Source of the DNA: Candidatus Eremiobacter antarcticus
GTDB taxonomy: Bacteria > Vulcanimicrobiota > Vulcanimicrobiia > Eremiobacterales > Eremiobacteraceae
Assembly: GCA_003244105.1 (NCBI GenBank)
Contig: QHBK01000008.1
Coordinates: 1 to 64,000 of the forward strand
DNA: 64,000 bases
Reading direction: 5' to 3'
Below are positions 21,044 through 24,628 of this stretch, in pieces. Positions within the stretch are counted from its first letter, which is position 1, and each line of letters starts with the position of its first letter. The translations under genes were made by a program, and so were the position numbers. The notes under the pieces were generated by a model. The model was not told the DNA's origin. It saw nothing but the letters and a program-made list of their open reading frames with translations, and searched no databases.

Positions 21044-21982
21044 ATGCATGCGCTGATCTGCTCCGGCCTTCACGACTGGGTCGAGTGGCGATTCGGCGAA
21101 GGGATGCTCAAAGAGCTCAGGTTCTACAATCCCGCCTTTCGCAAAAAGCGGATAGGTTTGATCCCCGATCAGGACTTGTTCTCGGATTTGGATTTGTTGT
21201 CGCGCCTCAGCCACCAGCCGAAGAGTTCGCTGCTGGAAGACTTCCGCCGGTACATGGCCATACCGCTCTTGTTCGAATACCGCGCTTTGGTCCCGGCGGA
21301 GTGGACCGCCCTGGAAGTCGTGGAGCATACGGAGCCTTGCATCCATACGGCCATTCGCGATGCCGACGACGGCGCACCGCCTTTCATCCGCTGCTGGCGC
21401 ACGCCCGACAATGCCGTCCGCATCATGTACAATTCGTCGCGCCGCATGTGCGAGTTCGCGAGGGGCCTCATTCGCGGCATCGGCGACCACTATCAAGAGG
21501 ATCTGATCATCGATCAAACGCTGTGCATGAAACGCGGTGATGCCTACTGCGAGCTGTTCGTGCGCTCGACCATCGTATCCACGATTCAGGATGCGGCCGG
21601 CAGCGTCCGCAGACTGCGGCTTCATCCGTCAATCGTCAACGAGGCCGTTGATATGGTCAAGCGGCAGCTGACCAACGCATCTGTCGATAGCGACACCATC
21701 GAGGCGTTGGTGCTCTCGACGATGGAAGCTGTCGGCAACGTCGTCCGCCATGCCAAAAGCCCCGATTGCGAAGTCGCGGTCCACGTTCAGGGCAATCTGG
21801 TCAAACTGCAGGTCACAGATTACGGCCCCGGCTTCACGCTCACGAAGAGGGCGATGCCTGATCCCTTTTCGGAAGGTGGGCGCGGCATTGCGCTCATGCA
21901 GAGCGCATGCGATTCCGTGGATTATGAAGTGCGCAGATCCGGAAACTGCCTGACGTTGCTCAAGCGTCAAGCCGGCCCTTAA
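21044..21982 (+). CDS. H-NOX heme sensor fused to RsbW-like HATPase (anti-sigma kinase-type) domain
   Basis: 312 residues. Residues 1-175 look like an H-NOX domain. The YxSxR heme-propionate motif is Y129-N-S131-S-R133, and the proximal histidine is most likely H101, 28 residues before the Tyr. The domain closes with QTLCMKRGDAYCE. The position equivalent to the O2-stabilising Tyr140 of the Thermoanaerobacter (Caldanaerobacter) protein is Phe138, which predicts an NO rather than an O2 sensor. Residues 195-308 are a GHKL ATPase of the RsbW/SpoIIAB kind: N-box E228..N232..H236, G1 D259-YGPG, G2 GGRGIALM (278-285). No phosphoacceptor His domain separates them. The inferred job is NO-gated control of an anti-anti-sigma partner or another phosphorylation target. 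A downstream membrane protein may be co-transcribed. Confidence 0.8.
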   Translation: MHALICSGLHDWVEWRFGEGMLKELRFYNPAFRKKRIGLIPDQDLFSDLDLLSRLSHQPKSSLLEDFRRYMAIPLLFEYRALVPAEWTALEVVEHTEPCIHTAIRDADDGAPPFIRCWRTPDNAVRIMYNSSRRMCEFARGLIRGIGDHYQEDLIIDQTLCMKRGDAYCELFVRSTIVSTIQDAAGSVRRLRLHPSIVNEAVDMVKRQLTNASVDSDTIEALVLSTMEAVGNVVRHAKSPDCEVAVHVQGNLVKLQVTDYGPGFTLTKRAMPDPFSEGGRGIALMQSACDSVDYEVRRSGNCLTLLKRQAGP

Positions 21983-22116: not shown

Positions 22117-22671
22117 ATGTCGTTTTTCGAAAGCATCACGCCTCTGGCGTCGCTCATCATCGCAGCGGCCACCGTCATCTTCACGACGCTCATGCTGCAC
22201 CGCCAGTCGCGGCAAATGGAACACGAGCGCAACGCGCTCGCAATTCTGGAGGCCATCGATCGGTTGACCTCATCCGAGATCGTGCGGATCTTCGTCCAGC
22301 TCAAAGGCGTCGCCGAACGCTATCCCGATGACGAAGCGCTCCGCACGCTTTACCCGGGATCGCAGGATGAGCTGGCGCTCTACATGGTCGGACAATACGT
22401 TGAGACGATCGCGTGTTTGTCACGCCGCGGCATCATCGATGCATCCCTGATCGTCGATGCGATCGGCCTCATGCTGCGAACGCGCTGGTCGATCATCAAG
22501 CGGTTCGTCTATCACCTGCGACGATACTACGGCAACGAGTACATGCTCGAAAATTTCGAGTGGCTCGCACGCTACAGCGCGTGGTGGAAGGACATTCCAA
22601 GGCCGCCAAGCGTCAATTACTCAAGCACCCAGTTCTTGCCGACTATCGACGAGGCGTTTTCCGCCAGCTAG
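22117..22671 (+). CDS. DUF4760-like membrane protein, function unknown
   Basis: 184 residues. One N-terminal transmembrane segment (about residues 6-26, ITPLASLIIAAATVIFTTLM) is followed by a basic stretch HRQSRQME and an all-helical cytoplasmic region. The layout, including the run ALAILEAIDRLTSSEIVRIF after the helix, resembles the DUF4760 group; this is a resemblance, not a proven match. It begins with an ATG 135 bp after the H-NOX gene in the same direction, with a GA-rich leader. Co-transcription with the sensor is possible, but the spacing could hold a promoter. Nothing points to an enzymatic activity. Confidence 0.65.
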   Translation: MSFFESITPLASLIIAAATVIFTTLMLHRQSRQMEHERNALAILEAIDRLTSSEIVRIFVQLKGVAERYPDDEALRTLYPGSQDELALYMVGQYVETIACLSRRGIIDASLIVDAIGLMLRTRWSIIKRFVYHLRRYYGNEYMLENFEWLARYSAWWKDIPRPPSVNYSSTQFLPTIDEAFSAS

Positions 22672-22709: not shown

Positions 22710-24122
22710 TTACGCCGCGGCGTTGGCCTTTTCTACGGCGGCCGCGATCATCTCAGCGTGCGCTTGCGGGTCTGCCCAGCGGGCTTGCGCTTCCGGTGAC
22801 AGCGCTTCGATCGGGTCGAAGTAGGTGAACCACTGACCCGGCTTTACGCTCGGCGCACTGTAGACCGCAATGCCGTTGACGCGGTCGTAATAGTCATAGC
22901 TGTGCACGTCGCGCTTGCCGCCGCCGCCCGGTGCGTCGCAGACGAACGTCGGCGTATTGAACCCGGCCGTTGAGCCCCGAACGAACTTCTCAATGTCGAC
23001 CGCAGCCTGCACCGTCGTGCGCAGATCCTCAACACCCTTGACCATGTCGTGCATATACACGTAGTAGGGGTGGACATGGACGTAGCCGAGCCGTTTGACC
23101 AGCAGCCGCATGACGTGCTTGTCGTCGTTGACGCCGCGGATCAGCACGCTTTGGTTGCGCACCATGATGCCGCGCTCGAACAGCACGTTCATCGCCTTCG
23201 CGGTGATCCATGTGATCTCGTTCGGGTGATTGAAGTGGGTGTGCAGCATGACGTCTTTGCCCATGCTGCGGCCTCGCTCGACCACCGACGTCAAGGCATC
23301 TGTCCAGGCGGCATCGCTCATGATCTTCATAGGCATGACCGCCGGCCCTTTGGAGGCGAAGCGCATGCGTCTGACGTTGGGGATGTCCAACAACGCATCG
23401 CCGATCTTCTTGAGGCTCTTCGCCGGCAATTGATAGGCGTCGCCGCCCGAGATGACGATGTCTTGCAGTTCCGGACGCGAGGCGATGTACTCGAAGGCGT
23501 GCTGCCAACGCTTTGCGTCTGTGGCGACTTCCGCTTTCTCGACCACTTCAGTATCGCCGCCGATGGCATACGAACGCGTGCAGTAGCGGCAATACACGGG
23601 GCATACGTTGGTCGGCAAGAACAGCGCCTTGTCCACATAGCGGTGGACGAGACCGGGCACCGGCGCATCCTCTTGCTCGTGCAAGGAGTCGAGTGAGAGC
23701 TTCGGATGGTCTGGCACGAGGCGCGAGGCCAACGGGATGAACTGCGTTCGGATCGGATCCGTGTACGGACGGCTCCAATCGATGCAGGCGATCATATACG
23801 GAGAGACGCGCACATTCATGGGAGCGCGGTGGAAGCCAGCGCGGACGTCATCGATGAAGTGGGCGGGCGCGAGCGCCTGAATGGTGTTCAACAACTCGTC
23901 GGGCGTCTTCACGGAATGCTGATACTGCCAGAGGTGGTTGAGAAAGGTGGCTTCGTCTATGTCCTGGTACGCGGGTATCGAACGCCAGAACTCGCCCTGC
24001 ACGAGCTGCATGTGCTCGAGCGCGTCTGGACTGGCCGGCGGTTTTAGATGACGCGGTTCCTCTAAAAGTGCGCCGTTGCTCGGCGTGATGGGTTCAGGCG
24101 ATATGAGTGTGGCTTCAGACAT
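22710..24122 (-). CDS. kamA: KamA-family radical SAM 2,3-aminomutase (lysine-type)
   Basis: 470 residues. The radical-SAM cluster is C174-x3-C178-x2-C181 in CPVYCRYC. The PLP lysine is in PGGGGKRDVHSY near residue 410, matching the P-G-G-G-K motif of lysine 2,3-aminomutase. VISGGDAYQLP and HTHFNHPNEITW are further family marks. The reaction would be L-lysine to L-beta-lysine (or glutamate to beta-glutamate), oxygen-sensitive and SAM/PLP-dependent. EpmB-type proteins are shorter. Its start overlaps the stop of an Lrp-type regulator by one base (TGATG), so amino-acid-responsive control is likely. No downstream fermentation genes (kamDE, kdd) are present; beta-lysine as osmolyte is an alternative. 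Confidence 0.85.
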   Translation of the reverse strand: MSEATLISPEPITPSNGALLEEPRHLKPPASPDALEHMQLVQGEFWRSIPAYQDIDEATFLNHLWQYQHSVKTPDELLNTIQALAPAHFIDDVRAGFHRAPMNVRVSPYMIACIDWSRPYTDPIRTQFIPLASRLVPDHPKLSLDSLHEQEDAPVPGLVHRYVDKALFLPTNVCPVYCRYCTRSYAIGGDTEVVEKAEVATDAKRWQHAFEYIASRPELQDIVISGGDAYQLPAKSLKKIGDALLDIPNVRRMRFASKGPAVMPMKIMSDAAWTDALTSVVERGRSMGKDVMLHTHFNHPNEITWITAKAMNVLFERGIMVRNQSVLIRGVNDDKHVMRLLVKRLGYVHVHPYYVYMHDMVKGVEDLRTTVQAAVDIEKFVRGSTAGFNTPTFVCDAPGGGGKRDVHSYDYYDRVNGIAVYSAPSVKPGQWFTYFDPIEALSPEAQARWADPQAHAEMIAAAVEKANAAA

Positions 24123-24628
24123 CAGCGTACGCTCCGTAAACGGCGTGACGCAGGCGCGCCGTGATCATGGATGGTAATGCCGCCCCGCTCGAAGGGGGTG
24201 GATAGGACGATCATCGTCTTGCTTCGCACGATTCCAGGGATTTTCTTGAGACGGGAAAGGAAGTCGTCCAGATCGCTCGTGGAACGAGTCATGACTTTCA
24301 CGACGAAACTCTCTTCGCCCGCGACGCTGTGAATCTCGGCAACCTCAGGCAGCGCGGAGACCGCCTCGGTGAACTCGTCATAGTCCGTCTCAGCGGACGT
24401 ATAACAGCTCACAAAGGCCGTCAATTCCAAGCCCAACAACCGGCCATCCAGCCTTGCGGTATAACCACGCACAAAGCCGCGTGTTTCTAAACGCTTGACG
24501 CGGTCGTGCACGGAGGCCGCCTTCAGGCCAACCAACGCCCCGAGTTCGGCAAAAGTCGAACGCCCGTTACGCTGCAGCGCCTCCAAAAGCTGAAGGTCGA
24601 GCTGGTCCAGGCCAACGGTGTTTATCAA
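24122..24628 (-). CDS. Lrp/AsnC-family transcriptional regulator
   Basis: 168 residues. The N-terminal winged helix-turn-helix reads LDQLDLQLLEALQRNGRSTF and then AELGALVGLKAASVHDRVKR, with the family's typical VxxRVKRLE wing at 40-50. The C-terminal RAM domain has the VAEIHSVAGEESFVVKV stretch that binds amino acids. The start is a TTG with GGAG about 13 bases upstream. It is the first gene of a two-gene operon with kamA. An inverted repeat overlapping its own promoter suggests autoregulation, and the ligand is probably the KamA substrate or a related amino acid. Confidence 0.93.
   Translation of the reverse strand: MINTVGLDQLDLQLLEALQRNGRSTFAELGALVGLKAASVHDRVKRLETRGFVRGYTARLDGRLLGLELTAFVSCYTSAETDYDEFTEAVSALPEVAEIHSVAGEESFVVKVMTRSTSDLDDFLSRLKKIPGIVRSKTMIVLSTPFERGGITIHDHGAPASRRLRSVR

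Follow-up and report, generated by a model that had tools for sequence, protein, structure and literature searches.

A predicted H-NOX sensor joined to an RsbW-type ATPase domain in Candidatus Eremiobacter antarcticus, a candidate NO/redox-gated switch kinase

We have found in a 64,000 nucleotide stretch of Candidatus Eremiobacter antarcticus (contig QHBK01000008.1, from here on the window) a gene coding for an H-NOX sensor joined directly to an RsbW-type domain, a wiring that apparently had not yet been described for an H-NOX sensor. The protein could be a soluble NO/redox-gated switch kinase in one polypeptide, acting in trans on a STAS protein or a sigma factor of an RsbV/RsbW/SigB-type network, and we give this reading an even chance. 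The gene is an ORF of 312 codons plus stop at 21044-21982 on the forward strand, and its product of 312 aa is organized as follows:

21044-21982, forward strand: whole gene of the H-NOX, linker and HATPase_c_2 fusion (ORF, translation and counterpart in a second genus)
21044-21565, forward strand: H-NOX (HNOB) sensor domain, residues 1-174 (Pfam HNOB and profile matches to H-NOX in the PDB)
21566-21613, forward strand: linker, residues 175-190 (37.5% identity between both fusions, against 86% and 90% for the domains on either side)
21614-21979, forward strand: HATPase_c_2 domain of the RsbW/SpoIIAB GHKL type, residues 191-312 (Pfam; NCBIfam RsbA, SpoIIAB and RsbW models matched below cut-off)

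Both domains and their motifs are solid as sequence features. HNOB matched residues 4-156 of the fusion protein with 47.1 bits (E 3.1e-12; Pfam curated cut-off 25.5 bits), inside the first 175 residues where the initial annotation had placed it, and HATPase_c_2 matched residues 198-306 with 64.4 bits (E 1.3e-17; cut-off 27.4 bits). Only about 16 linker residues lie between the two domains, and no Pfam family of the HisKA phosphoacceptor/dimerisation type was detected in the protein at E<=1. The identity as a two-component histidine kinase is thus ruled out, with no phosphoacceptor domain ahead of the ATPase, and the architecture proposed in the initial annotation (an H-NOX fused to an RsbW-type ATPase and devoid of a phosphoacceptor domain) stands. 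There was also a match to V4R (29.4 bits by hmmscan and 32.5 by six-frame search, with a cut-off of 31) that we rejected as the main label, since the HNOB match covered more residues with a better score and the structures matched by the family profile were all H-NOX or sGC. An AlphaFold2 model built on 2 sequences only had a pLDDT of 43.7; its low-confidence helices and strands fit an H-NOX followed by a GHKL ATPase.

The same fusion appears in a second genus of the family (genome G013, JACRUD010000153.1, L003/L057), with 85% identity over 311 aa. The dN/dS between the two genes (Nei-Gojobori) was about 0.126 for the whole gene and about 0.12 and 0.10 for the two halves, indicating that both domains are under purifying selection. 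Identity reached 86% in the H-NOX half and 90% in the ATPase half and dropped to 37.5% in residues 175-190, so that on this comparison the linker alone is unconstrained between the two genera. The genes flanking the fusion differ between the two genomes, and we found no conserved gene neighbourhood. An assembly join, against which the fusion had been sought in relatives, and a chance ORF were both rejected: because a second genus carries the same fusion, in another contig context and under purifying selection, it is not an artefact. In a survey of 149 species of the phylum we found 13 HNOB proteins in 11 genomes, 2 of them fused and the other 11 stand-alone, and in the genome of the window (a 2.6 Mb assembly) the fusion is the only one. 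A 360-residue HNOB frame in another genome (G094) was rejected as a third fusion, its extra length overlapping the frame of the upstream gene. Among plasmid records searched by tblastn none spans both halves, and the genome-wide scan with the fusion protein as query reached close relatives only. Within the phylum as sampled by these 149 species the fusion is lineage-restricted. Its presence in only two of them is what would be expected if the fusion were recent and its halves functionally uncoupled, or if it were an assembly artefact. The artefact part is already refuted, and the finding of two genera with differing contig contexts and dN/dS values of about 0.12 and 0.10 in the halves makes this whole explanation very improbable.

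For the sensor half, searches of PDB sequences gave as best match the Shewanella oneidensis H-NOX (2e-8 with the single sequence, 3e-33 with the family profile), followed by Nostoc-type H-NOX, the H-NOX domains of methyl-accepting chemotaxis proteins and guanylate cyclase beta-1. The residues expected in contact with the heme could be located by alignment, together with those of a second site that is discussed below:

21344-21346, forward strand: codon of His101, proximal heme-ligand position (alignment to Shewanella H-NOX and stand-alone relatives)
21380-21382, forward strand: codon of Pro113, the conserved heme-pocket Pro (invariant in nine aligned family members)
21428-21442, forward strand: YNSSR, residues Y129-R133, the YxSxR heme-propionate motif (Y, S and R invariant in nine aligned members)
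21455-21457, forward strand: codon of Phe138, distal-Tyr position (Y129+9)
21449-21451, forward strand: codon of Cys136, first ligand of the Zn/redox site (aligns with the first Shewanella zinc Cys; invariant in nine members)
21515-21550, forward strand: codons of Q158, C161 and C169, rest of the Zn/redox site (spacing of Shewanella H161/C164/C172; C161 and C169 invariant in nine members)

H101 had been pointed out before as the proximal His and indeed aligns with that of the Shewanella protein, as Y129-N-S131-S-R133 does with the YxSxR motif. We take the distal Tyr to be located nine residues past the YxSxR Tyr, the offset being that of the Thermoanaerobacter protein, and there the fusion has Phe138, in agreement with the initial annotation. 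According to the ligand-selectivity rule, O2-binding H-NOX have a distal Tyr (PMC8738867). With F138 there is none, and therefore the H-bond donor for O2 binding is not predicted and the rule points to NO rather than O2 as the ligand. The earlier prediction of NO sensing from F138 fits this published rule, but it had overlooked that the Cys/Zn redox site is intact. The second hinge region is kept (G141/G145). At the first one ('DFG') the Gly is Arg68 in the window protein and Gly in the relative from the second genus, and we regard Arg68 as a departure from the typical H-NOX. The H-NOX half presumably binds heme. The genome of the window contains a ferrochelatase and three heme-copper oxidase subunits (one matching a cbb3-type subunit model below cut-off), and therefore heme should be available in this organism, which is predicted to be heme-making and probably aerobic.

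Residues C136, Q158, C161 and C169 align, with the same spacing, with the zinc ligands C139, H161, C164 and C172 of the Shewanella protein. In the characterised H-NOX groups the fourth ligand is either His or Gln, and in Vibrio cholerae H-NOX the zinc site senses oxidation without heme (PMC7108781). A complete Cys/Zn redox site of the Shewanella/Vibrio type is thus predicted in the fusion, which adds a second candidate input to heme-gas sensing. The Gln158 of the fusions is Glu in the stand-alone relatives of the subtype. Across the nine family members of the Eremiobacterota that were aligned the Cys triad did not vary, and it was kept in three stand-alone ones that have Gly or Ala in place of the proximal His; of the two elements, the thiol site is thus the better conserved. 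All this would be consistent with a sensor half whose main function is that of a thiol/zinc redox switch independent of heme, a kind of sensing that has been published for such a site (PMC7108781), with heme and NO being secondary or absent as in the heme-free Vibrio cholerae protein. We find this unlikely, although by no means far-fetched: His101, Pro113 and YxSxR are kept in both fusions, something unexpected had heme been abandoned, and four stand-alone relatives of the same subtype retain the proximal His. Either NO or redox, or the two together, may be the input.

The three stand-alone proteins that have lost the proximal His (L041 801-1346, reverse strand; L039 1417-2004, reverse strand; L040 1411-2034, forward strand) keep the Cys triad and YxSxR and are candidate heme-free redox sensors. 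Such His-less, Cys-keeping sister proteins provide a natural comparison for heme-independent redox sensing.

The kinase half has the three boxes of a GHKL ATPase that had been reported as intact:

21725-21739, forward strand: N-box, E228-x3-N232 (alignment to the RsbW of the same genome and paralogues)
21818-21832, forward strand: G1 box, D259-x-G261-x-G263 (alignment)
21875-21898, forward strand: G2 box, GGRGIALM, residues 278-285, including G278-G-R-G281 (alignment)

They are intact indeed, and both the RsbW of the same genome and a solved RsbW (6m36) align with them. Among the NCBIfam models the RsbA anti-sigma regulators (NF041045) ranked first, with 33.6 bits over the C-terminal part only and a cut-off of 210. 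The equivalog cut-offs of RsbW (20.7 vs 145 bits) and SpoIIAB (21.4 vs 135 bits) were missed by far, both models giving ~21 bits. Equally weak matches, also far below cut-off, were obtained with some histidine-kinase models. The nearest relative within the genome is a stand-alone HATPase_c_2 protein of 151 residues on contig C4, with 45% identity to the kinase half. This one (L066 1420-1875, reverse strand; about 23469-23846 on C4 of genome G000) is an orphan with no obvious partner gene near. Another stand-alone paralogue on contig C7 (region L052 6107-7945, G000) shows 40% identity by blastp and 46% by six-frame search and adjoins a GAF-SpoIIE phosphatase on the same strand, a setting that we interpret as a partner-switching context.

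The immediate neighbours of the fusion in the window are an MFS transporter, a DUF4760 protein and a lysine-aminomutase-like gene, and no STAS, phosphatase or sigma gene adjoins it either here or in G013 (where the ORFs were assigned by inspection). The DUF4760 protein (22117-22671, forward strand) is located 135 bases downstream on the same strand and is not beside the fusion in G013. The lysine-2,3-aminomutase-like radical SAM protein (22710-24628, reverse strand) is next to an Lrp/AsnC-type regulator, the two being probably an ordinary two-gene unit. The genome contains in total six STAS and four SpoIIE proteins. On contig C3 (about 261214-262778) STAS, HATPase_c_2 and sigma genes are found in a row as an RsbV-RsbW-SigB-type operon, with the sigma factor above the SigB/SigF/SigG cut-off and the STAS protein above that of anti-sigma-factor antagonists. 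The partner suggested by the initial annotation, an unlinked STAS protein plus sigma factor, is possible because the genome has both, but no STAS orthogroup tracks the fusion. The RsbV of the C3 row (261214-261561 on C3 of G000) is present in 14/14 family genomes, and among these 14, with part of their STAS loci compared, no orthogroup was confined to the pair that has the fusion; a dedicated partner is therefore not indicated.

The anti-sigma/serine kinase role that had been attributed to this half remains plausible, although its scores are far below the RsbW, SpoIIAB and RsbA cut-offs and the fusion has neither a STAS nor a sigma gene next to it. The C-terminal half might instead have a target that is not a sigma factor, such as a SpoIIE phosphatase, and act on it as an RsbT-like switch kinase or as an ATP-dependent adaptor. 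Of the stand-alone paralogues whose surroundings are informative, the closest is precisely the one adjoining the GAF-SpoIIE phosphatase, the genome has its four SpoIIE proteins and the RsbW/SpoIIAB equivalog cut-offs were not reached; the top NCBIfam match to an anti-sigma family and the RsbV-RsbW-SigB-type row in the genome argue in the opposite direction. We hold this alternative as possible, somewhat short of an even chance.

Under the reading of a NO/redox-gated switch kinase, the H-NOX half would sense NO with a His101-bound heme, oxidation with a Zn(Cys)3Gln site, or both. Ligand or oxidation would shift the H-NOX subdomains, and the short flexible linker would relay the movement and alter ATP binding, dimerisation or phosphotransfer in the RsbW-type half, which in turn would phosphorylate or sequester, in trans, a STAS protein or a sigma factor. 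In this chain of events we infer heme binding, NO as ligand, the serine kinase activity, the partner and the sigma output. Counting in its favor are the two domains above the Pfam cut-offs, the heme-contact residues and the Cys/Gln zinc site aligned to Shewanella H-NOX, and the purifying selection on both domains with a free linker in two genera. To these are added, for the kinase half, the intact E-x3-N, DxGxG and GxG aligned with the RsbW of the same genome, the anti-sigma factors among its best curated relatives (RsbA first) and the paralogue beside a GAF-SpoIIE phosphatase, and for the genome, the row of RsbV, RsbW and a SigB/F/G-family sigma factor and the availability of heme indicated by ferrochelatase and heme-copper oxidases. 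Counting against it are the absence of an adjoining STAS, phosphatase or sigma gene and of a fusion-restricted STAS orthogroup, the scores far under the RsbW, SpoIIAB and RsbA cut-offs, Arg68 at the first hinge, the loss of the proximal His in some stand-alone H-NOX relatives and the unreliable structure model. A bolder version, which we consider doubtful, is that of a one-component anti-sigma factor in which NO on the heme or oxidation of the zinc-thiol site would directly switch the RsbW-type domain, so that a SigB-type sigma factor is freed or captured with no need of a histidine kinase, a response regulator or a stressosome.

If this holds, the H-NOX family would enter sigma-factor partner switching by way of a direct covalent link to an RsbW-type domain, and the fusion could tie NO or oxidative stress straight to gene control, its presumed output. 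It would besides be compact, with sensor and kinase open to joint study in one protein; in 2022 a review stated that a high-resolution structure of an H-NOX with a signalling partner did not exist.

The initial annotation knew of no described system with this fusion. We found no description of an H-NOX/HATPase_c_2 fusion in the open-access literature searched, only the stressosome paper mentioned below and one incidental mention, but the plan of a sensor plus an RsbW-like ATPase in one chain is already known. RsbA has a sensory N-terminus. In the Streptomyces RsbA family (NF041045) this region precedes, in the same chain, an RsbW-like ATPase at the C-terminus, as here, whereas the fusion reaches only 33.6 bits with that family model (cut-off 210) and has as its sensor an H-NOX, with no MEDS match. 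The PAS/GAF-SpoIIE-HATPase_c_2 regulators, found in the same bacterial family, also combine sensor and HATPase_c_2 in one chain, but have between them a SpoIIE phosphatase that is missing in the fusion. In the heme-sensing stressosome of Vibrio brasiliensis (RsbR globin plus RsbT), a heme gas sensor likewise controls an RsbT/RsbW-type kinase; there, however, the sensor is a globin rather than an H-NOX, carried by a STAS scaffold protein apart from the kinase (PMC4976288). The known H-NOX outputs, for the most part separate proteins, comprise histidine kinases, cyclic-di-GMP enzymes and chemoreceptors (PMC8738867, PMC8846402). The stand-alone Shewanella oneidensis HnoX and Vibrio cholerae H-NOX, with their partner kinase HnoK, share with the fusion the H-NOX family, the proximal His, YxSxR, the Cys/(His or Gln) zinc site and an output to a GHKL-type kinase, but theirs is a separate histidine kinase and not an RsbW-type ATPase in the same chain and without a phosphoacceptor His domain. 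The H-NOX-methyl-accepting chemotaxis fusions of anaerobes resemble it in the covalent joining of H-NOX to an output domain, and differ in being membrane-bound chemoreceptors with a distal Tyr that bind O2 (PMC8738867).
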